Source of the DNA: an uncultured Gammaproteobacteria bacterium
GTDB taxonomy: Bacteria; Pseudomonadota; Gammaproteobacteria; JAADHQ01
NCBI GenBank assembly: GCA_947258655.1
Contig: CAMYJD010000001.1
Coordinates: 143,242 to 207,241 of the forward strand
DNA: 64,000 bases
Direction: 5' to 3'
Below the pieces are notes generated by a model. It was not told where the DNA came from and made no database searches. It saw nothing but the letters and a program-made list of their open reading frames with translations. Both the position numbers and the translations under genes were made by a program. Shown here piece after piece: positions 6,668 through 59,378 of this stretch; position 1 is the stretch's first letter; every line of letters begins with the position of its first letter.

Positions 6668-8308
6668 TTAATCCTTGACAGCATTTATCGAAGGATCATA
6701 CATCAGGATACTGATGCCAGTATATTTGGCCTTGTACATGGCCAGGTCGGCATGACGCATCAGTTCTTCACTACTTTTTCCATGCTCCGGATACACTGCA
6801 AAACCGATGCTGACACCCAGCGTGCAATTATGCCCACTCACCGACACCGGCTCATGCAATACATCGACAAGTTTTTGTACGATTGCACTGACATTTGCGC
6901 CACGCCCCAGGCCCTGCATCAACAACACAAACTCGTCGCCTCCGAGACGAGCCAGTGTATCTGTGTTTCTAACCACTTCGAAAAAACGCTCAGACACCTG
7001 TTTAAGCACCTTGTCACCCATCTCATGACCCAGCGTATCATTAATACGCTTGAACTGATCGAGGTCTATGATAGCCACGGCAAGTGGCTCCCCGCTTCTG
7101 GCGCTGTTGTTGATGGCCTGGCGCATACGATCCAGTAGCAGGCTACGGTTCGGCAGCCCGGTCAGGATATCGTGCATGGCCTGGTACCTGAGCCTCCCCT
7201 GCAACTCTTCCCTGACGATTATTTCACGTTCCAGTTGCTTGTTGGAAAACAGCAGACGACGATTACGCCCGATAACATATGAACTGAGAACAGTGAGGAT
7301 AAATAATGTCAGTACGACATATAGCAGCCAGTACCAGTAGTGCGCGATAATATCCGTAAGACTGATTGCACCATAATTCTCATAATTGCCGACCCGGAGT
7401 TCTTTCATCAGGTCGTCCACCGGCTGGTAGTCGAGTGGCGCCGTCCATCCTCCAATCAGTGCCGAGCGCGTCGCATGGTGATCTTCTGGGATGCGCAGCA
7501 GGGCCAGGGCCACGTCCTGCGCCAGTTTGACCGGCACATTTTTTGTCGCTGCGAAAGGCCATTCCGGATAAAGTCGGGTGCTCAGTTGCTGCGGAAAATA
7601 ATGATAGTGCTGCGGATTCAGTATCTTGAACTGGTGCATATCGATCAGCCCGTCATGGTTCATACGTTCCAGCAGACTGGTACGTACCGTTCCTGCATCG
7701 ACTTCCTTGTTGAGTACCGCATAGACAATCTTGTCCTGGGGAAAACTGGAAAACCTCAATTGCTGAAAATCCTGCTGTGGATCGAGCCCGTAGCGCTTGA
7801 TTTCGCGCTTGGCCATCCACCATCCGCCAAAGGCATTGCGATGTACAGCCATGAAACGCTTACCCTTCAGGTCTTCAATGCCCTGGATATCGCTGCGATC
7901 CGTGCGGGTAAAAATGACCGCACCAAATTCAGTCGAGGTACCACCATTGGACCTGTTTAATAACGTTGCCAATCGCCTGACTTGATAGCGTTTCTCAAGC
8001 ATGGAATAGGAAGCAGGATTCGATAATACAAAATCTATCTTTCCTTGCTCGACCAGGGATTCAATATTGTCATTATTTACCGGAATAATTGTGAAATGAT
8101 AAGGCGATATTTGCTCAGACAAATACTCCGCCATCGGTTGCCAGCGCTGACGTGTAATCTGCCCTCCTCTGAAGGCCAACACAGCTATGCTGACATTTTT
8201 TTCATTGGCAGTTTTTTCGACAGCAATTGACTCTGAATGAGCCACCATTAAGACAGTGGCAATCATTACTGCAAGCAACATCCCTGACAGATAGCGCATG
8301 TCAATCAC
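6668..8308 (-). CDS. PhnD-type periplasmic sensor fused to GGDEF diguanylate cyclase
   Basis: 546 aa. An N-terminal signal-like helix (8-24) is followed by a periplasmic binding domain of the phosphate/phosphonate PhnD class (about 35-305, with VLSNPASY and LKGKRFMAVHRNAFGGWW). A membrane helix at 326-346, a short coiled linker and a GGDEF domain follow. The active site GGDEF is intact (456-460), and the RxxD inhibitory site (RNTD, 447-450) lies five residues before it. This predicts an active, product-inhibited cyclic-di-GMP synthase controlled by a periplasmic ligand. The ligand is unknown. Confidence 0.9.
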   Translation of the reverse strand: MIDMRYLSGMLLAVMIATVLMVAHSESIAVEKTANEKNVSIAVLAFRGGQITRQRWQPMAEYLSEQISPYHFTIIPVNNDNIESLVEQGKIDFVLSNPASYSMLEKRYQVRRLATLLNRSNGGTSTEFGAVIFTRTDRSDIQGIEDLKGKRFMAVHRNAFGGWWMAKREIKRYGLDPQQDFQQLRFSSFPQDKIVYAVLNKEVDAGTVRTSLLERMNHDGLIDMHQFKILNPQHYHYFPQQLSTRLYPEWPFAATKNVPVKLAQDVALALLRIPEDHHATRSALIGGWTAPLDYQPVDDLMKELRVGNYENYGAISLTDIIAHYWYWLLYVVLTLFILTVLSSYVIGRNRRLLFSNKQLEREIIVREELQGRLRYQAMHDILTGLPNRSLLLDRMRQAINNSARSGEPLAVAIIDLDQFKRINDTLGHEMGDKVLKQVSERFFEVVRNTDTLARLGGDEFVLLMQGLGRGANVSAIVQKLVDVLHEPVSVSGHNCTLGVSIGFAVYPEHGKSSEELMRHADLAMYKAKYTGISILMYDPSINAVKD

Positions 8309-8661
8309 CTTGTATTAAGACATAATTTTTTATTATTTAATATTATTAACTACGCCATAATATCGGATACGTCAATCCGTCAAATCAAATACTGTGAATC
8401 TATTCGCTGTTAATGATTAAAACATTACAGCATGCGCGGTTATACGTCGGGGTAAACACCATCTATTTATTCACTCCGATCTAACATCATTAACCAATCA
8501 GTAAATTCTAACTACTAATTTTCAATGTCGTTTAAATAATAATCTATCTGGTAGATATGACACCTGCTAATGGAATGCCGACAAATACGACCTGCATCCG
8601 CATTTAAATTACATGGAGGTTGTAATTTCACGGGACGGATGAACATCCGTGCACAGCCAAG
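8309..8661. other. AT-rich intergenic region
   Basis: 353 bases without a credible gene, between the start of the PhnD-GGDEF gene and the end of the histidine kinase gene. It should carry the promoter of the GGDEF gene near 8320-8420, but I see no clear consensus. A hairpin, ACGGAT/ATCCGT at 8635-8650, lies 12 bases after the kinase stop and could help end that transcript, though no U-run follows it. Confidence 0.5.
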
Positions 8662-10200
8662 TTATGCTAGTGGCAATTCGATATAGAATGTGGAGCCCTG
8701 GCCTTCAGTTGTTTCAAAACCAGCGTGCCCACCCTGCCTTTCAATCAGGTCTTTTACGATACTCAGGCCCAGACCGGTACCCTGGGCATGCGTGCTCGTT
8801 CTCTTGCCTAGCTGAGAAAACCTGCTGAAAACACGGTGTTGCTCGGATTCAGGTATACCCTGCCCATGATCCGTCACGCTGACACGTGCACATTCCCCGT
8901 CACGCTCGATCGATACCAGAATATTGTCCTGTTGCGCGCCGTACTTGATCGCGTTCGACAGCAGGTTGGAAAGTACCTGTTCGAAACGGGACGGATCGAC
9001 ATCGACAAGGATATCATCAGCATCTGTATGCAGGCTTATACTGGCATCATACAGGTCGCAATAACCCTTGTTATTTTCAATGCATGCGCTGACGAGCTGT
9101 TTCAGGTTTTTGCGTTTGATATCGAACGTCATCTTGCCGGCCTCGATCTTTTGCAGGTCCAGCAAGTCATCGATCAACAACGACATACGATCGCAATTAT
9201 TGATACTAATGCCGATGTATTGATTCATGTCTGCCGTTGCTTTGCCCTCACATTCGGATTCTATCAGTGACAGGAAGCCGCGAATGGCGGTGATGGGTGA
9301 GCGTAGCTCATGGCTGACAACGGCAAGAAATTCATCCTTGTTGCGCTCGGCCCTGATTCGCAAACGCTCTTCCCGACGCACGATGATATACATAATAACA
9401 CTGGCGACCATGAACAGCACGGCTATCAGTATCGAATAGAATAATAATTTATTTCTGAAATCAGCAAATAAACCGGACAGGTTCAGATCGACAACATCCC
9501 ACACCGTATCGGAAACCTTGTTGGCATACAGGACTCTGTTTGTCTCATCAGCCGTTAGCCGATAATCATCACGCTCCCAATTAATCCTGGCACCATCGGC
9601 CGTGACTTCGATCAAGTTAAGCGCAGGGTCGATCAACATCAGCTGATGACCCGGTGATTGCGCATTACGCAAGACATTGCCGAGTATATCGGCATGAAAA
9701 CTGATAAACAGCGTCCCCGCTCCAGGTCCCGATGACAGCGGCGCCATGATATCGAAGTGATAGACTTCATGATGAGGATGAATGCGTGGCGACTGTTTGC
9801 CATGCTCTGCAAATTTCCTCAGATCACCCTTGCACAGCTCACCAACATAGCCCTCAAAATCCTCCCTGAGCGGTTCGCCACTGGTATCGGCTACAGTGAA
9901 GGTGAAAAAGTCGGGGAAATAAGTGGCAATAGTGCTACTAACTTGCTCGTACAACTCATCGTTATCGGGGCCGTGCATGAACTGCTGGATCAATTCCATA
10001 TAATCCCTGGCAAATAATGCCACCTGGCGTTTTTTTTCTGCGATAAATGCAGCAATTGCCCGCGCCGCTGAAGCAGTGGCTTCCTCGGCAATCGAGTTAT
10101 GATAGGACCTGAAATCCTGATAGCGCTCATGTCCCGTCCAGGCCAGCAGGCCCACGACCAAAACATTGACGAATATCAGATAGACGGTATATTTACGCAT
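8662..10200 (-). CDS. Membrane sensor histidine kinase
   Basis: 512 aa. Membrane helices at about 7-21 and 253-274 flank a roughly 230-residue periplasmic sensor domain that looks Cache/PAS-like. The cytoplasmic part has a HisKA box with the phospho-acceptor His297 (SHELRSP), an N box (NLLSNAIKYG), and G boxes (DHGQGIP and GTGLGLSIV). There is no receiver domain and no adjacent response regulator, so its partner is elsewhere. The small ORF 10221-10484 is 20 bases upstream and probably co-transcribed. Confidence 0.9.
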   Translation of the reverse strand: MRKYTVYLIFVNVLVVGLLAWTGHERYQDFRSYHNSIAEEATASAARAIAAFIAEKKRQVALFARDYMELIQQFMHGPDNDELYEQVSSTIATYFPDFFTFTVADTSGEPLREDFEGYVGELCKGDLRKFAEHGKQSPRIHPHHEVYHFDIMAPLSSGPGAGTLFISFHADILGNVLRNAQSPGHQLMLIDPALNLIEVTADGARINWERDDYRLTADETNRVLYANKVSDTVWDVVDLNLSGLFADFRNKLLFYSILIAVLFMVASVIMYIIVRREERLRIRAERNKDEFLAVVSHELRSPITAIRGFLSLIESECEGKATADMNQYIGISINNCDRMSLLIDDLLDLQKIEAGKMTFDIKRKNLKQLVSACIENNKGYCDLYDASISLHTDADDILVDVDPSRFEQVLSNLLSNAIKYGAQQDNILVSIERDGECARVSVTDHGQGIPESEQHRVFSRFSQLGKRTSTHAQGTGLGLSIVKDLIERQGGHAGFETTEGQGSTFYIELPLA

Positions 10201-10220
10201 ATTGTCGCATGTAAAATAAT

Positions 10221-10484
10221 TTATTTGATTCTTTGCCAGGTGCTTTCAACCAGTTCCACTTCATAACGCACCTTGTTGCTAAAGTCCTCGAGGGCCAACG
10301 ATTTATATTTGCGACGGTTTTTTCCGACCAGGACCCGAAAATGAACAACGTGCTGCGCTGACCCTGATGCGCTATCGCCGGGCTCAATGCGAATCTCTGT
10401 AACCTGCCAAACGGTCCATTTCTGGCCGAACTCGCCATTACTGTAACAGGCTCCCTGGCGTATATTTGCTATGTGAACTGCCAT
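10221..10484 (-). CDS. Small conserved-looking protein of unknown function
   Basis: 87 aa (MAVHIANIRQGACYSNGEFG...), no signal peptide, membrane segment or recognisable motif. Composition is that of a soluble beta-rich domain, with alternating hydrophobic and charged residues around VVHFRVLVGKNRRKYKSL. It is chosen over a 10193-10438 frame because the latter overlaps the kinase start and has an implausible composition. It sits 20 bases before the histidine kinase and 41 bases after mog, so it may belong to a mog-ORF-kinase transcript. Confidence 0.65.
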   Translation of the reverse strand: MAVHIANIRQGACYSNGEFGQKWTVWQVTEIRIEPGDSASGSAQHVVHFRVLVGKNRRKYKSLALEDFSNKVRYEVELVESTWQRIK

Positions 10485-10525
10485 AAGCGATCACACAATC
10501 CGGAAAGTCCTGTTAGCCGCTAAAA

Positions 10526-11068
10526 TCATTTTTTTGCCTTGGGACGGAAAACCTTGATAAACGCCTCATTGGCAAGCAAGTAAGGGCCTTCTATCAGGTC
10601 TATGCAATATGGGATCGCCGGGAACACGGCATTCAGACAATCGGCGATAGCCGACGGCTTGCCGGGTAAATTGACAATCAGGCTATTGCCGCGAATGACT
10701 GCAATCTGCCTGGACAGGATAGCAGTAGGAACATACTGCAGTGACACCGATCGCATCAGTTCACCGAAGCCATCCATGATCTTGTCGGCAACGGCCGTGG
10801 TGGCCTCGGGGGTAATATCACGCCTGGCCGGCCCGGTACCACCGGTGGTGACGACCAGGCAACATCCCTGCTGATCACACAATTCCTTCAGTGTATTCTC
10901 TACCTGATCCTGCTCATCCGGAATAACTCGCGCTACGGCCTGCCAGGGTGAGCTCAATGCATTATCCAGCCATTCCTGGATTGCTGGTCCCCCAAGGTCC
11001 TCATATTCACCGCGACTGGCGCGGTCAGAAACGGTAACAATACCGATGCGGGCGATATCCTGACTCAT
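10526..11068 (-). CDS. mog: Molybdopterin adenylyltransferase Mog
   Basis: 180 aa. Activates molybdopterin with ATP to adenylyl-molybdopterin before molybdenum insertion. Seen: the N-terminal GIVTVSDRASRGEYEDLGGP, the active-site motif TGGTGPARRDITPEAT (75-90), and NLPGKPSAI near the C-terminus. The GPARRD variant fits Mog better than MoaB. It stands alone without other moa or moe genes in the window. Confidence 0.92.
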   Translation of the reverse strand: MSQDIARIGIVTVSDRASRGEYEDLGGPAIQEWLDNALSSPWQAVARVIPDEQDQVENTLKELCDQQGCCLVVTTGGTGPARRDITPEATTAVADKIMDGFGELMRSVSLQYVPTAILSRQIAVIRGNSLIVNLPGKPSAIADCLNAVFPAIPYCIDLIEGPYLLANEAFIKVFRPKAKK

Positions 11069-11183
11069 AAATGCTGACCTTTAATTACTAATATTGTTAA
11101 TTATTAATTAACGATGGTGAAGTTTAACGCATTGCGAGACAATGCGAAACCAGCCTGTTAAAAATTGCGGGAAGTATTGCCGA

Positions 11184-12035
11184 CTATGCCGCCGACATCA
11201 ACATGCGCGTCATCGCATTGATCTCTTCGCGGGCCTCGTACAGCAATTCGATACTGGCATCGGGGCCAATCCGGAACAATGGCAATTTCCTGAATGAGGC
11301 GACTTCGTGTAACACCGGCCTGTCCTCGCCTTCCTTTCCGAACTGACTATGCATATTGGCAACGATCGCCAGATCAACGTAATCGGCCTCCTGATCCGCT
11401 GCATAGTTATGATTATCAATCTGCTGCGGCACCGCGACCAGTTCACTATCAAACGACCATTGCCTCAGCACCAGGCTCCCCAATTGTTGCGCCAGGCGCT
11501 GGATCAGATCATTAATCAAAATCCTGTTTTTCTTCAGCTCCGGGTAATCTGCCGCATAGCGTAAGATCGGTATCGCACCTATATTATGCACCAGGCCTGC
11601 GAGCAGGGCCCGGTCGGGTACCATACCCATCGTGACCCTGGCCAACACATAACTGATCGCGGCCACTTCGCTGCTTTTATTCCATGTGCTGCGGGCAATA
11701 TCGCGCACAATCGCCGAACCTATCTGGAAACTCTGACGCAACGCAAAACTCATGACCAGATTACGGGTTGTGTTCATGCCCAGACGTGCTACCGCGGTAC
11801 GGCAATCGTCCACACTCCCATGATGTGCATATAGCGCGCTGTTGGCCACCTGGACCAGCTTTGCTGCCAGCGCCGGATCCATCTGAATGACTTTTGCCAT
11901 ATTGACAATATTGGCATCGGGATCACCAACATACCTGTTAATATTGATCGCCACTTCCGGTAGACTCGGCACCTTCAATCTGCCGGCCTTGAAATCCTCC
12001 TGGATCCTGTTGACCAATTCCTGAACTTGTTGCAC
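11184..12035 (-). CDS. HDOD domain signalling protein
   Basis: 283 aa covered almost entirely by one HDOD domain: LPSLPEVAININRYVGDPDANI, then LAAKLVQVANSALY and GLVHNIGAIPIL. HDOD proteins are degenerate relatives of HD-GYP phosphodiesterases and lack the metal-binding HD pair. They are regulatory proteins in many motile bacteria, with mostly unknown partners. No receiver or EAL domain is attached. It stands alone; the upstream 139 bases are very AT-rich. Confidence 0.9.
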   Translation of the reverse strand: MQQVQELVNRIQEDFKAGRLKVPSLPEVAININRYVGDPDANIVNMAKVIQMDPALAAKLVQVANSALYAHHGSVDDCRTAVARLGMNTTRNLVMSFALRQSFQIGSAIVRDIARSTWNKSSEVAAISYVLARVTMGMVPDRALLAGLVHNIGAIPILRYAADYPELKKNRILINDLIQRLAQQLGSLVLRQWSFDSELVAVPQQIDNHNYAADQEADYVDLAIVANMHSQFGKEGEDRPVLHEVASFRKLPLFRIGPDASIELLYEAREEINAMTRMLMSAA

Positions 12036-49506: not shown

Positions 49507-50049
49507 TCAGATGCCTGATGTGGCATTTCGCTTCGCTGCCACCTGGCGGCGATGGTTCAGAAATATGTAGCGTTGCAGCAGTTCCTGCTCCGCTGTATCC
49601 AGTGCATGCAGCTTGACTCTACAGTAGTCCTGCCCTGCTTCACGGATCTCTGCAAACATTTTCAATGGCGATACAGAATATGGATGCAGATACAGCTGCA
49701 GCATGAGTTGCTGTTGTGCGACAAGCCCTGATAGCCCACTTGCAGTCCATTGCAGACTCTCGGTAGTCAGTTTTACATGATATGCCGATGTGGCCTGTTG
49801 CTTGTTGATCATTGATCCCAGCAGGCTCAATAACAGGTCAATTTTTCTTTCCATTCTGCTGTTGTCGCGCAAATCACTGCCAAGGTCATCCTGGCCAGTA
49901 TGGGAGAATTCATCCAGTAGCAGCACCTGTTTCAGGCTTTCGATGTTGTGTTCATGGATATAGCGCAGCATGTCATCGTCAGGCGGGGTATCGATGTGCT
50001 CCCAGTGCAAGGGCAGGAGGCCTTCGTATGTAATCTTACTTTCATCCAT
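49507..50049 (-). CDS. PilZ-like (cyclic-di-GMP-binding type) protein
   Basis: 180 aa, cytoplasmic. N-terminal helical part (MERKIDLLLSLLGSMI), then a beta-barrel-like C-terminal part (LQLYLHPYSVSPLKMFAEIREAGQDYCRVKLHALDTAEQELLQRYIFLNHRRQVAAKR) resembling the divergent PilZ proteins that accompany fliS/fliT in flagellar clusters. The canonical RxxxR motif is not obvious. It lies between the fliT-like gene and fleQ; a link between c-di-GMP and filament assembly is inference. Confidence 0.65.
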   Translation of the reverse strand: MDESKITYEGLLPLHWEHIDTPPDDDMLRYIHEHNIESLKQVLLLDEFSHTGQDDLGSDLRDNSRMERKIDLLLSLLGSMINKQQATSAYHVKLTTESLQWTASGLSGLVAQQQLMLQLYLHPYSVSPLKMFAEIREAGQDYCRVKLHALDTAEQELLQRYIFLNHRRQVAAKRNATSGI

Positions 50050-53667: not shown

Positions 53668-55218
53668 TTACTGCAGCAGCGCCAGTACACTCTGTGGAAG
53701 TGCATTGGCCTGTGACAGTATGGACACACCTGCCTGTTGCAAGATCTGGGCACGGGTCAGATTCGCTGTTTCAGCTGCGAAGTCCGCATCCAGTATACGA
53801 CTACGTGAAGCACTCAGATTCTCGGATGTAGTTTCCAGGTTTGAGATAGTGGATTCAAAACGACTCTGGATCGCACCAAAGCTACTACGCAGGTCACTGA
53901 TACTTCTCAGGGCTGCATCGACACGGTTGATCGCAGTATTGGCGTTGTCAACACTAGTGACAGAAGCCGAGTTAAGCGCAGATGAACCCAATGCCATGGA
54001 CGAGTTGTCGGCATATCCGATATAGGCCTCATTAGCACCGCTTAAGGTGATCGCCTGCGTAGAGGTCAGACGAATAGTACCGCCATACGTTTCAGTGACA
54101 GCAGTGCCGGCTACGGTAGTCAGTGCGGTCTTGGCATCATTTGAGGTGTTGTTCAGGCCAGCACTGGTTGCTGTCAAACCATCACCTACACCGGATGCAC
54201 CGCCTGTCTGACTGACAGTAATATTACGACCATCTGAAGCATTCAGAGTCATACGATTATTGGCACTATCAAATGTTGCCGTTACACCAGAATCTGCAGA
54301 GTTCGCATTGATTGCAGTGGCCACCTGATCACCGGTCAGGCCACCATCAAATGCAGAGTAAATTGTCTGACTGTTAATTGACAGAGTATAATCCGCAGTT
54401 GTAGAAGCAGTTACAGCAGCAAAATCAAATACCGCGGTTGTATCAGCAACGGCTGTCAGATCATTGATACCTGAAGCATTGATCGCCTCTACCTTGGAAT
54501 AGGCGCTACTGGCCGTACGACCGGCATTGCCCGAACCCGTACTGTTATCCACTGATGCAACCACACCAATAGCGGAACCACTACCAACAGCAATCGACAG
54601 ATCACCGGTTGCGAGTCCATTTGCTATATCGACACCAGTACCCTGCTGACCAACTGCAAGCGTGCTGGAATATTGTGATGTTCCGTTGACGTAATCGGCA
54701 GTCTTACCGATTGATATGGTACGTACACTTGTAGATAGACCTACAGTAATCGTCTCACCAACATTGGCGCCGATCTGGAAAGCAGCATCACCAAATGTAC
54801 CATCAAGCACCTTCTGGTTATTGAACGAAGTCTGGGTCGCGATACGTTCGATTTCTGCGAGACGTTGCTGTACTTCCTTGTCAAGGGCAGCTCGGTCAGA
54901 GGCAGAGTTGGTGGCATTCGCAGACTGCACCGCCAGTTCACGGATTCTTTGCAAGTTGTTAGTGACCTCACCCAGTGCACCTTCCGCAGTCTGAGACAGG
55001 GAAATGGCATCGCTGGCATTTCTTGAAGCCTGGTTTAAACCACGAATCTGTGTGGTAAAACGCTCCGAGATAGCCAGACCTGCTGCATCATCCTTGGCGC
55101 TGTTGATACGCAAACCGGAAGACAGGCGTTGCAGTGATGTCTGTAATGATGATTGTGAACGATTAAGGTTACGTTGCGCGGTCAATGACGCTATATTGGT
55201 ATTAATAGTTTGAGCCAT
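53668..55218 (-). CDS. fliC: Flagellin FliC
   Basis: 516 aa. The conserved N-terminal D0/D1 region (INTNIASLTAQRNLNRSQSSLQTSLQRLSSGLRINSAKDDAAGLAIS) and C-terminal D1/D0 region (ISDLRSSFGAIQSRFESTISNLETTSENLSASRSRILDADFA...LLQ) are intact. The central ~200 residues are Ser/Thr/Ala/Asn-rich and exposed, suited to O-glycosylation. SD GGAGAG. It is the only flagellin gene in the window. Confidence 0.97.
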   Translation of the reverse strand: MAQTINTNIASLTAQRNLNRSQSSLQTSLQRLSSGLRINSAKDDAAGLAISERFTTQIRGLNQASRNASDAISLSQTAEGALGEVTNNLQRIRELAVQSANATNSASDRAALDKEVQQRLAEIERIATQTSFNNQKVLDGTFGDAAFQIGANVGETITVGLSTSVRTISIGKTADYVNGTSQYSSTLAVGQQGTGVDIANGLATGDLSIAVGSGSAIGVVASVDNSTGSGNAGRTASSAYSKVEAINASGINDLTAVADTTAVFDFAAVTASTTADYTLSINSQTIYSAFDGGLTGDQVATAINANSADSGVTATFDSANNRMTLNASDGRNITVSQTGGASGVGDGLTATSAGLNNTSNDAKTALTTVAGTAVTETYGGTIRLTSTQAITLSGANEAYIGYADNSSMALGSSALNSASVTSVDNANTAINRVDAALRSISDLRSSFGAIQSRFESTISNLETTSENLSASRSRILDADFAAETANLTRAQILQQAGVSILSQANALPQSVLALLQ

Positions 55219-55630
55219 GATAATCTCTCCAATTCCCTTGCTGAATCAATAGGATAGATAGCAAGGGTCTGGTTAATCTTAACGGATATACTTCATCAGT
55301 ATTGAGAAATATTTACCGTCTCCAGACACTTTAGCGGCAGCGAAACAGCGACCTTTAGTTTTTATTTAACTCAATTTCAAGTAATAACGAACATCAGGTA
55401 TTGCCTGATCAGCACATACACCATACATATTTAATAGTATTTATTTGCACGTATCACCCATGAAATCAGCGATACACCGCTACACATGTATTGGTCAGTA
55501 TTGATATGAGGTGACTGGCGATCATGTAATTACTGTGTAAAGCATGCCATGCGATTTGATTGCCAGCTTAACTAGGTTAATTTTGAGCAAACTAGTTGCT
55601 GGATGACATGTCGAGCAGAATTACAGCCTA
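55219..55630. other. Intergenic region upstream of fliC
   Basis: 412 AT-rich bases without a gene. The fliC promoter (55331-55357) and ~105-base leader occupy the part next to fliC. The remaining ~270 bases up to the stop of the fusion glycosyltransferase gene show nothing I recognise, including no clear terminator for that gene. Confidence 0.6.
55331..55357 (-). promoter_or_regulatory. Sigma-28 (FliA) promoter of fliC
   Basis: On the minus strand TAAAGGTC (55357-55350), 11 bases, GCCGCTAA (55338-55331). This is 6/8 and 7/8 to TAAAGTTT and GCCGATAA at the exact spacing. It lies ~113 bases upstream of the fliC ATG, where a flagellin promoter is expected. Confidence 0.8.
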
Positions 55631-58381
55631 TTAACAATTAGAAATCGCAAGGCCTAGTAATCTTTCCCTTATGTCTTTGTCCAGCAGGCCTCTGGCCGGA
55701 TCTTTCAATAATTGCATTGCATTATCGTATAATACTTCAGACAGCCTGGCTTGATCCGTTGCAACGAATGTATCAATATCCAGCATTGTCAATAATCCTT
55801 CAATTTTCTTTGTATTACTTTCCATTACAATAAAAGGCGTATTGAGAAATGCTGCCGCAATCGTATGATGAAAGCGTCCCGATATAACCAACGCTGCATG
55901 ATCTATTGTAGACAGCCATTCCTGTTCGCTCCACGCATACACCAGCTCACAGAATGTACCTACATGGCGATGCAAGGCTTGCACCAATCGCATATCGTCA
56001 CCTGCAGGATAGGCATTGGCGCCGATTAAAAGGCTTATAGAAAAACCGTTTTTATGGAGCATTTCAATTAGATCACCTATTTGTCTGATCGTCTTAACCC
56101 CCCAAGAAACCGACCCGGCAATCACAATCCTTCCTTTTTCCGTTCGTGTGTCGGCCTGATAATATTGTTCTATATATAGTGGCAGACAATCAAAACTCTG
56201 TGTCACCGTCAGGCCCATGCTGGTTAATAATTTAGCACTGACCACCTCACGAACTGCAATATTGTCCAATTGTTCATACACTTTTCGAAAAATAGTTTGC
56301 GCTTGTGAATCGATAGCAACGTTATTGTCGTCAGGATAGCATGAGTGATTAATAATACTGATCCGTCTGTTCATTCTTGTTTTTGCTATATAGGCAAGAT
56401 ACAACAAACCCAGGGTCGTTTGACTAACACCATGCAAGGTACCTTCACCATTAATATATACCTCCCCGGCATCACGTATTTTTTCTATTATCCACGGATA
56501 AACGTTACAAAACTGTTCAAAAAATTCATTATCATCAAAGTGTTCGATTGTAGTCGGCACAAGATCAAGGTGATTGGTGTTGTAGATAGGAACAGAAACT
56601 ACCGAATCCCACCGTGCACGTAATCGATCATGAATCGCCAGGCTTGTGCAAGTACATCCCCAGTGATACCAGCTTGTTGTATCATTTAATAACAGAGCGT
56701 ATGCCTTTTTGTTTACTCTTGATATAAGCTGGCCTGTTAACTGATTACTCAAAGTATTACTATCACACGCTTCAGTATTTTCTGAAGTATCAGCGATATC
56801 ATCTGCAAGAAGGCTTTCTGTTAGATCTTTTTCTACTACAGCCAAAAGTTTTCGCCGTGCATCAAGGCCTGTTTTCCCGGATCGATACAATTTCACGGAT
56901 GGATACCAGACACTATCTTTACGATCATGCAACCAACGCCAATCCGAAAAGAATGGTAATAGCGCCCATACCGGCGTACCCACAGCGCCGCCTAGATGGA
57001 CCGTGGAATTATCTATAGATATCACCAGATCCAGCACCTTTATCAACGCACAAAAACCATCAATATCGGTCAGGGGATCAAGCCCTTCGAAACAATGTAA
57101 TAATCCGTTACCCTGCTGATGAAAAGTTTCTATTTCATCTGCATGATCGCCATATTGCAGATTAATAAAATTTATATTTTCGAGCTGAAATATATTTTTC
57201 CAGAATTTTAGAGGAATAGATCTGGCCTCACTAGCTCTTTTATCGACGCCCCCATGCCACGAAATACCAATATTCACATTCCCTTCTAATTGCTGTAATT
57301 TGTTTTGCCAACTTTCCATCAACACGGGATCAACTTTCAAATAGCAATTACGTTTAGGGAAATCATCTTCGTTGTGCCTGTAAAAACGCGGCAATTCAGA
57401 CATGGAAATTCTGAAATCGATGCCTTTCATCTCGCGCGTCCAGTAAAAATCGCCTGCTTTATCACCTGGAATAATCATCACACCTGGGAATGAGCGTTGA
57501 TATATGGCTACAAGACGTGGATCACATTCGATAGCCACATAGGCTGCCTGCTCTATTACATCCTGCAAGCAGGACGCGTACATAAGCTCGTCTCCAATAC
57601 CCTGATCAGCATTAATCAATAATCGCTTACCTAGCAATGAAGAACCATCCCACTTGGGGAATGGAATCAATCGAACAGGGTTATTATCAATAAATATTTG
57701 CGCTATATAGGTCCATTGGGATTCTTTCCATCCTGGCAAAAAGTTGCCTTTTGCTAACTGGATTTGCGCCCTTTTACTATGCGCCTCGGCATGCACAGGA
57801 TTACACGATAGCACGCGATCAAGATAGCTGATTGCATCATCTGGCCTGCCTGATTGATTTTGCAGTGTACCCATATTTAGTAATGCAATTTGTGACTGGG
57901 GATTGAGCTTAATTGCCTTCACATAAGCCTGAGCAGCTGCTTGATAATCACCAAAATCCTGCGAGGCAACGCCCAGGTTCTCATAGGCCTCGCCATAATC
58001 CGGTTTTAATCTGACTGCCTTTTTATATTGCTTTATTGCCATATCAAGCTTACTCATCGCCTGATATATTCTCGCCAGATTATAATGGAACTGGGCAATA
58101 CGCGGATTCACCTGGATTGCATGCTTGATTAAATCACAAGCAGTTTCCAAATCGTTATTTAATTCAACAATCAAACCAAGCAAATGAAGAGAATCTGCAT
58201 GATCAGGGTCAACCCCTAGAATCACTTGATAAAGATCGGCTGCTTCCTGTAGATTCCCTTGTTGGTGCAGCTGGAATGCATGTGCGAATACATTCTGAAT
58301 ATCATCAGACAGATCACTCGTAATGACTGCCATTTCATTCGACCCATGCTGCATTTTATTTTTGCTGTTGTTTTTTTCCAT
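55631..58381 (-). CDS. TPR - glycosyltransferase - polysaccharide pyruvyl transferase fusion
   Basis: 916 aa. Residues about 28-220 hold five TPR units (e.g. AQFHYNLARIYQAMSKLDMAIKQYKKAVRLKPDY). Residues ~240-530 resemble the glycosyltransferase domain of TPR-type proteins (NIGISWHGGVDKRASEARSIPL, VISIDNSTVHLGGAVGTPVWALLPFFSDWRW). Residues ~570-916 carry a polysaccharide pyruvyl transferase-like domain (WGCTCTSLAIHDRL; VISGRFHHTIAAAFLNTPFI). Base composition looks more AT-rich than its neighbours. Placement between flgL and fliC, with a sigma-28-like promoter, suggests flagellin glycosylation. Confidence 0.82.
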   Translation of the reverse strand: MEKNNSKNKMQHGSNEMAVITSDLSDDIQNVFAHAFQLHQQGNLQEAADLYQVILGVDPDHADSLHLLGLIVELNNDLETACDLIKHAIQVNPRIAQFHYNLARIYQAMSKLDMAIKQYKKAVRLKPDYGEAYENLGVASQDFGDYQAAAQAYVKAIKLNPQSQIALLNMGTLQNQSGRPDDAISYLDRVLSCNPVHAEAHSKRAQIQLAKGNFLPGWKESQWTYIAQIFIDNNPVRLIPFPKWDGSSLLGKRLLINADQGIGDELMYASCLQDVIEQAAYVAIECDPRLVAIYQRSFPGVMIIPGDKAGDFYWTREMKGIDFRISMSELPRFYRHNEDDFPKRNCYLKVDPVLMESWQNKLQQLEGNVNIGISWHGGVDKRASEARSIPLKFWKNIFQLENINFINLQYGDHADEIETFHQQGNGLLHCFEGLDPLTDIDGFCALIKVLDLVISIDNSTVHLGGAVGTPVWALLPFFSDWRWLHDRKDSVWYPSVKLYRSGKTGLDARRKLLAVVEKDLTESLLADDIADTSENTEACDSNTLSNQLTGQLISRVNKKAYALLLNDTTSWYHWGCTCTSLAIHDRLRARWDSVVSVPIYNTNHLDLVPTTIEHFDDNEFFEQFCNVYPWIIEKIRDAGEVYINGEGTLHGVSQTTLGLLYLAYIAKTRMNRRISIINHSCYPDDNNVAIDSQAQTIFRKVYEQLDNIAVREVVSAKLLTSMGLTVTQSFDCLPLYIEQYYQADTRTEKGRIVIAGSVSWGVKTIRQIGDLIEMLHKNGFSISLLIGANAYPAGDDMRLVQALHRHVGTFCELVYAWSEQEWLSTIDHAALVISGRFHHTIAAAFLNTPFIVMESNTKKIEGLLTMLDIDTFVATDQARLSEVLYDNAMQLLKDPARGLLDKDIRERLLGLAISNC

Positions 58382-58484: not shown

Positions 58485-59378
58485 TCAGAGGAAATTAAAT
58501 AATGATAGCCCCTGAACACGCACATAAGATTGCTGTGCGGCCTCAAGACCAACCTGCTGTTGATTCAGCCTGGAAATGGCCTCGGCATAATCGAGGTCCT
58601 GAATTTCGGACAACAGTTTATCGCCCTGAAAAACAACATCCTCATTAATTTTATTCTGGATATCGATTGCGTTCAGACGTGCACCTGTTTTACTCCTGGT
58701 CAGGTTCAGATTATCCATGACCGCATCGATATCGGCGAGTACTGTCGAAGCCAGGGTATCCGCTTCCAACGCAGTGGCTATCTTGTATGCAGCACTAAAG
58801 GCATTCTCGGAGGTATTGGCAATGTCAAAAAACACATCAAAACCATTATCACCATCGGCAACCTTGTTATTGGGTCCGACCTGGACCTGGCGTTGTCCCT
58901 GGTCACCTTGATAGGTATAGGTACCATTACCATCATCAGCAACAGGAACCACGTTACCACTGAAGCCGGAAAAGATATACTCACCTGTGGCATCCTTTGT
59001 TTCGGCCAGGCTTTTCAATTGACCTATCCCCTGGCGCACCTCCTTGGCAATCGAATTAAGATCTTCCTGATTCAGGCTATCATTCAGCCCCTGCACGGTC
59101 AGCTCCCTGATTCGTTGATATACATTCAGAAAGCCTGTTATCGTCGATTCTTCCAGTGATAATCTGGTATTGACAAAATCGGCATTCCTCCGGTATTGCT
59201 CATTCACCGCTACAATCTGGCCGACATCAATCACGCGTGCAGCACCGGATGGATCATCGGAAGGATTTTCGATACGCTTGCCGGAAGCGATCTGTTGCTG
59301 GGTCTGTAACAATCGGGCCTGCTGCTCGAGCATACGATTGACACTTTCAAACTGGAACTGGCTTGTGGATATTCTCAT
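58485..59378 (-). CDS. flgL: Flagellar hook-filament junction protein FlgL
   Basis: 297 aa. The N-terminal RISTSQFQFESVNRMLEQQARLLQTQQQIASGKRIENPSDDPSGAARVIDV and C-terminal EAISRLNQQQVGLEAAQQSYVRVQGLSLFNFL match FlgL. It sits outermost on the hook next to the filament. It starts three bases after the flgK stop; last gene of the flg run. Confidence 0.96.
   Translation of the reverse strand: MRISTSQFQFESVNRMLEQQARLLQTQQQIASGKRIENPSDDPSGAARVIDVGQIVAVNEQYRRNADFVNTRLSLEESTITGFLNVYQRIRELTVQGLNDSLNQEDLNSIAKEVRQGIGQLKSLAETKDATGEYIFSGFSGNVVPVADDGNGTYTYQGDQGQRQVQVGPNNKVADGDNGFDVFFDIANTSENAFSAAYKIATALEADTLASTVLADIDAVMDNLNLTRSKTGARLNAIDIQNKINEDVVFQGDKLLSEIQDLDYAEAISRLNQQQVGLEAAQQSYVRVQGLSLFNFL

Follow-up and report, generated by a model that had tools for sequence, protein, structure and literature searches.

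The window, a 64,000-nucleotide stretch from the genome of an uncultured gammaproteobacterium, carries between the flagellar genes flgL and fliC a single gene whose product joins a TPR array, a glycosyltransferase (GT) domain and a domain of the polysaccharide pyruvyl transferase family (PF04230). This protein very probably acts in the modification of flagellin, or at least of the filament, and it may well be a self-contained cytoplasmic flagellin O-glycosyltransferase that also attaches pyruvate to the sugar as a ketal.

Domain structure and setting of the fusion gene

The gene, its stop codon counted in, occupies positions 55631-58381 of the minus strand as one open reading frame with an ATG start, which encodes 916 aa and has no internal stops; its identity as a TPR-GT-pyruvyl transferase fusion draws on this uninterrupted frame and on eight other single-chain homologues. 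Downstream lies fliC (53668-55218, minus strand), coding for a 516-aa flagellin (Flagellin_N 153.4 bits, Flagellin_C 96.8 bits) that is the likely substrate and, apart from flgL, the sole flagellin-type match in the window's genome. The upstream neighbor is flgL itself (58485-59378, minus strand; Flagellin_N 79.1 bits). The same-strand genes further comprise flgH, flgI, flgJ and flgK upstream, and flaG, fliD, fliS, a tPilZ protein gene and flrABC-type regulators downstream, with several of these names assigned from sequence and gene order. The sequence-only reading of this locus, in which one 916-aa protein with TPR, glycosyltransferase and PF04230 parts sits between flgL and fliC, directly upstream of flagellin and on its strand, is borne out by the intact frame, the Pfam matches and the positions of the three genes. 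The tPilZ gene (49507-50049) encodes an atypical PilZ protein, a c-di-GMP receptor, and adjoins flrA; it is found in the same position in locus L028 and in the congener G003 (L042).

The TPR array, composed of helix pairs and predicted to be the flagellin-binding part, covers residues ~26-232 (57686-58306, minus strand). TPR families score well over threshold in Pfam (TPR_1, 81.6 bits against a cut-off of 27.8), and the AlphaFold model has helices at residues 15-232 with pLDDT mostly above 90. The GT-B domain follows at residues ~245-527 (56801-57649, minus strand). Its match to Glyco_transf_9 (PF01075; residues 412-474) is a marginal pass, with 22.6 bits against a cut-off of 22, and a fold search with this part retrieved the GT9 structure 3tov (Z 18.0, rmsd 3.1, 264 residues). 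None of the 25 best matches in Pfam (all with E up to 0.009) belongs to GT41, whose profile the sequence-only reading had put forward alongside GT9-like and pyruvyl transferase profiles; the GT family matched is GT9. In the model of residues 1-544 (pLDDT 85) a TPR superhelix is joined to the GT-B domain, and the best PDB matches of this part are SPINDLY and OGT (E 2e-16 to 1e-12); superposition over both domains leaves a large rmsd of 11-13 Å, so that the relative orientation of the domains differs or is uncertain. As modeled, the GT domain is GT9-like by sequence and OGT/SPINDLY-like in the way it joins the TPR part, and it probably carries out glycosyl transfer. Sequence searches of the PDB with the GT profile and with the C-terminal profile gave no significant matches.

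The C-terminal domain (residues 561-916; 55634-56701, minus strand) passes the PF04230 (PS_pyruv_trans) threshold clearly, with 61.6-63 bits against 25.3 over residues 640-855. PF04230 was matched in all 13 homologous C-terminal domains and is the sole family common to them, Glyco_transf_4 being additionally matched by one. The domain is marked by the motifs NDT..WYHWGCTCTS, NGEG.LHG, NHSCYP, VRE..S, FDCLP, SGRFHH and SNT.K. Phosphoenolpyruvate (PEP) is bound in CsaB by R148, R306, H308 and K328 (PMC10435577), and PEP-binding residues have also been described for Pvg1p (PMC4872226). Profile alignments with WcaK and with two PF04230 proteins encoded in the window's genome locate their counterparts: R711 (codon 56249-56251) aligns with the arginine of WcaK LRESVS and corresponds to R148, the R836-F837-H838 codons of SGRFH (55868-55876) align with WcaK GTRLH and supply the counterparts of R306 and H308, and K859 (55805-55807) aligns with the lysine of WcaK EHK and corresponds to K328, all on the minus strand. 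The four PEP-site counterparts, R711, R836, H838 and K859, are invariant in 13/13 diverse C-terminal domains.

The domain aligns with WcaK (hhalign probability 97%, E 1e-10) but is divergent: the first fifth of the PF04230 profile is unmatched, and HWGCTCTS stands where WcaK has N-x-GD. N-terminal motifs unlike those of WcaK would be expected for an enzyme with another acceptor. The model (pLDDT 86) has a clear GT-B fold, common to many enzymes; its closest matches are nucleotide-sugar enzymes, and the Pvg1p structure 5ax7 is not among the matches listed. The fold together with PF04230 membership does not prove PEP as the donor, and it is from the family and the conserved residues that we regard pyruvyl transfer by this domain as reasonably likely.

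The gene is AT-rich, as had been noted from its sequence. Its GC content of 41.7% falls in the bottom 1% of a sample of 288 ORFs of at least 200 aa (50.8 ± 3.5%), drawn from the window and 400 kb of the same genome, and its GC3 is 37.5% as against 55.0% in these ORFs. The TPR, GT and C-terminal domains are alike in this respect (42.6, 41.7 and 41.5% GC), which suggests that the fusion gene came in or evolved as a whole. Relatives do not generally show low GC: in L015 and L029 the GC of the fusion gene is near or above that of the locus.

The sequence-only reading had also placed the gene behind a sigma-28-like promoter, and this part does not stand. The good site, which fits TAAA-N15-GCCGCTAA with one mismatch, lies at 55357-55331 and precedes fliC, not the fusion gene; its sequence is TAAAGGTCGCTGTTTCGCTGCCGCTAA (55331-55357, minus strand; one mismatch to TAAA-N15-GCCGATAA). 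Upstream of the fusion gene there is a lone GCCGATAC at 58458-58451, with no matching -35 element at the correct spacing. A sigma-28 promoter for the fusion gene was sought in the window and in the loci of relatives and rejected, as no credible site, and none of the quality of the fliC site, was found there. At the other fusion loci, sites of similar quality precede fliC in L015, L018 and L029, and a weaker one does so in L014. The 103-bp gap between flgL and the fusion gene, on the same strand, makes read-through into the latter possible.

Homologues, their placement and their divergence with flagellin

Most of the eight further single-chain homologues are 36-41% identical to the window's protein, and they come from Gammaproteobacteria/Proteobacteria and from one Desulfuromusa. 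A scan of genome contigs yielded six loci, namely five full-length fusions (L014 to L018) and L019, from an alphaproteobacterial MAG, in which the enzyme is split near fliS into two overlapping genes, with the TPR-GT gene ending at 1404 and a possible start of the pyruvyl transferase-like gene at 1401 (ATGA overlap). Of 368 other genomes of the class, a further 4 had a match to the C-terminal profile, as did 2 of 398 sampled from the phylum; the phylum to which L014 belongs gave 1 weak match in 394 other genomes. These searches added three fusions (G092, G127 and G222, at loci L028, L029 and L030), and they gave no matches in the plasmids and phages searched. With about 1% of the class carrying it, the fusion family is rare, and its distribution is patchy.

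The arrangement flgL-[fusion]-fliC is seen in 5/9 cases (the window, L014, L015, L018 and L029), the Desulfuromusa locus L014 reading flgL-csrA-fliW-fusion-fliC. Other flagellar genes adjoin in 3/9: the L028 fusion has fliT on one side and tPilZ/flrA on the other, that of L030 is near fliS-fliT with two methyltransferase genes between, and that of L017 is by flgA-flgM-flgN with two small genes between. Flagellin is present in all eight genomes with a flagellar-placed fusion. The remaining full-length homologue, L016, has no flagellar neighbors and comes from a MAG without a detectable flagellin match. If flagellar clusters make up ~2% of such genomes, as we estimate, the chance of eight placements out of nine arising at random is negligible. 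The fusion might, as the sequence-only reading had cautioned, have proved common far from flagellar loci; its single-chain homologues are instead mostly found beside flagellar genes, an outcome that favors flagellin modification.

Several variants of the architecture were seen. The L028 protein (8258-11587, opposite strand, between fliT and the tPilZ gene) has 1109 aa and a fourth, C-terminal methyltransferase-like domain (Methyltransf_23, 27.0 bits). The L030 protein has the order TPR-GT-TPR-GT-C-terminal domain in 1707 aa, and the two genes separating it from fliT-fliS (9344-12023) encode tandem paralogous methyltransferase proteins of ~440 aa. In L035 (5964-9725; G379), the TPR-GT and pyruvyl transferase-like genes are split, and a GT29 (sialyltransferase)-like gene comes after them; this locus lies outside flagellar genes, and its genome has three NeuB and 16 flagellin-type matches. 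In the 1.3-Mb genome G686, the pyruvyl transferase-like domain is N-terminal in a 692-aa protein (L036, 8935-11013); this genome has no flagellin match, and the function of the domain must therefore differ there.

Three loci with similar flanks, L015, L018 and L029 (FlgL 84-88%, FliS 91-93%, FliD 78-86% identity), provide one natural comparison. Between L015 and L018 the fusion is 65% and the FliC center 74% identical; between L015 and L029 the fusion drops to 48%, and the FliC center to 30-31% where L029 is compared. The fusion diverges along with the FliC center, not with FlgL, FliD or FliS, and this sequence comparison points to FliC as its putative partner. Across phyla, FliC of L014 is 51-57% identical to gammaproteobacterial FliCs, as alike as several of those are among themselves, as against 25-37% for its FlgK, FlgL, FliD and FliS. 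These identities are no more than suggestive of movement of a fusion-fliC cassette between phyla, as FliC ends are conserved everywhere and the center has a common Flagellin_IN-type repeat.

Proposed activity and alternatives

For the activity of the fusion we infer flagellin as the substrate, a sugar and its donor, pyruvyl transfer and an order of steps. The TPR superhelix would bind FliC before export, and the GT9-like GT-B domain, with a nucleotide sugar as donor, would glycosylate Ser/Thr in the surface-exposed D2/D3 region of flagellin. The PF04230 domain would then use PEP to place a ketal-linked pyruvate on that sugar, and the outcome would be a filament surface that is negatively charged without any nonulosonic acid pathway. 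Flagellin modification with the TPR part as recognition module, and a possible acidic pyruvyl decoration, had already been proposed from the sequence; the promoter detail has fallen away, and the proposal itself is favored by the 8/9 flagellar placement, the OGT/SPINDLY-like TPR-GT model, the invariant PEP-site residues and the precedent of FlmG (PMC7591256).

If the C-terminal domain were instead a second glycosyltransferase of the GT-B type with a nucleotide-sugar donor, the protein would build a flagellin disaccharide from two sugars, without pyruvate. Its fold, closest to nucleotide-sugar enzymes, would suit such a role, as would the Glyco_transf_4 match in one member and the presence of multi-glycosyltransferases in such slots (2593 aa in L042; two TPR-GT units in L030). 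We nevertheless consider it unlikely, since the four PEP-binding residues of CsaB/Pvg1p are all invariant, PF04230 is shared by every member, and the characterized PF04230 proteins are, to our knowledge, PEP-dependent pyruvyl transferases. Slightly less likely still is a target other than flagellin, such as FlgL, FliD or another axial protein, or a cell-surface polysaccharide, with the placement reflecting shared regulation only. In its favor, some loci have fliS/fliT or flgAMN close by instead of fliC, the setting of L016 is non-flagellar, and the split genes of L035 also lie apart from flagellar genes; yet 5/9 fusions directly precede fliC, divergence follows the FliC center, and TPR and GT parts joined in one chain are how protein O-glycosyltransferases are built, unlike polysaccharide pyruvyl transferases. 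That the gene is a recent, poorly expressed acquisition with no role in this strain is very improbable: its GC content, the lack of its own sigma-28 site and its absence from two congeners that have flagellar genes would fit, but the 916-aa frame is intact with every catalytic residue kept, flgL is 103 bp away on the same strand, and relatives are not generally low in GC.

One of the closest known systems is FlmG of Caulobacter crescentus, which by description likewise has its TPR part N-terminal to a glycosyltransferase domain, is linked to flagellin and is of cytoplasmic type. Flagellins are bound by the TPR half of FlmG, and their modification requires both halves (PMC7591256); Maf-1 likewise recognizes flagellin through TPRs, as cited in PMC13317340. 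A pyruvyl transferase-like domain, present in the fusion, is absent from FlmG as described. O-GlcNAc transferase and SPINDLY (GT41) share the TPR superhelix joined to a GT-B domain and are the best structural matches of residues 1-544, but the fusion has a GT9-like GT domain by sequence, fewer TPRs and the added pyruvyl transferase domain. The latter resembles CsaB, Pvg1p and WcaK in its PF04230 score over the cut-off, its GT-B fold and its counterparts of CsaB R148, R306, H308 and K328. Known PF04230 members, however, are stand-alone proteins with wall polymers, exopolysaccharide or, in fission yeast, Golgi glycans as their targets, whereas here the domain shares a chain with a protein O-glycosyltransferase-like half, is encoded in a flagellar locus and has motifs of its own (HWGCTCTS, NGEG.LHG, NHSCYP). 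On our best reading, the protein is a variant of the already known TPR-type flagellin glycosyltransferases that also has a pyruvyl transferase-like domain.

Flagellin glycosylation normally takes a whole sugar pathway plus a transferase. If the proposal is correct, one chain would recognize and glycosylate flagellin and draw on central metabolism (PEP) to give the glycan its charge, which would make it the simplest such system, and would add a chemistry not found in the flagellin literature searched. It predicts a pyruvyl ketal, about +70 Da and acid-labile, in several sequenced organisms. In the literature searched, mostly outside subscription journals, we found no pyruvyl transferase reported to take part in flagellin modification: papers combining polysaccharide pyruvyl transferase with flagellin did not concern flagellin modification, as judged by title and abstract, and text search of a 2019 review of pyruvylation found "flagell-" only within an algal species name.

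Nonulosonic acid genes and other occupants of the slot

FlmG depends on NeuB-made pseudaminic acid, whereas the window's genome (G000, 98.7% complete) has no match to the NeuB family PF03102. In seven other fusion genomes PF03102 matches are weak (E 1e-8 to 1e-11) or absent, below NeuB strength, and the weak ones look like DAHP synthase-type relatives; a true NeuB occurs among fusion genomes in G222 only. The absence of NeuB makes it unlikely that the GT domain uses a nonulosonic acid donor in these organisms. As NeuB is present in 95/331 genomes of the class (29%), a 0/8 pattern has a chance of about 0.07, is not significant as an anticorrelation and on its own proves nothing. No PF01973 match above the cut-off was found for Maf in fusion genomes, with a model that is named MptE-like, matched only archaea among controls and may miss Maf. 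More tentatively, a one-protein system may make ketal-pyruvylated flagellin in which the pyruvyl sugar is an acidic stand-in for sialic-acid-like nonulosonic acids, the gene having spread between distant bacteria with its flagellin. The pyruvylated galactose of fission yeast has been described as sialylation-like (PMC4872226), and pyruvylated flagellin would, if real, parallel it on a bacterial protein glycan.

Enterobacteriaceae (PMC4875605), Geobacillus (PMC5109656) and Clostridium (PMC13317340) are known to have islands for flagellin ornamentation between fliC and flgL/fliA, and text search found no polysaccharide pyruvyl transferase in these three papers. What the fusion locus has in common with these islands is that modification genes next to the flagellin gene are variable and biased in composition, the fusion amounting to a one-gene island. 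Two congeners of the window's organism, G001 and G003, have flagellar genes and NeuB and lack the fusion. The NeuB gene of G003 belongs to what looks like a nonulosonic acid pathway locus, and the flgL-fliC slot of this genome (L042, 6291-14072, contig C3) is taken by a gene for a single protein of 2593 aa that combines GT4, an FkbM-type methyltransferase, two GT2 domains and TPRs; within one genus, the slot is therefore occupied by different enzymes that presumably modify the filament. The G003 flagellin is only 286 aa long and has no D2/D3. In G001, NeuB is directly 5′ of a TPR-GT gene: on the 5941-bp contig C175 (L043), NeuB and a xylose-isomerase-like TIM barrel share one open frame of 639 aa, followed at once by a long protein (>1341 aa) of repeated TPR-GT units.
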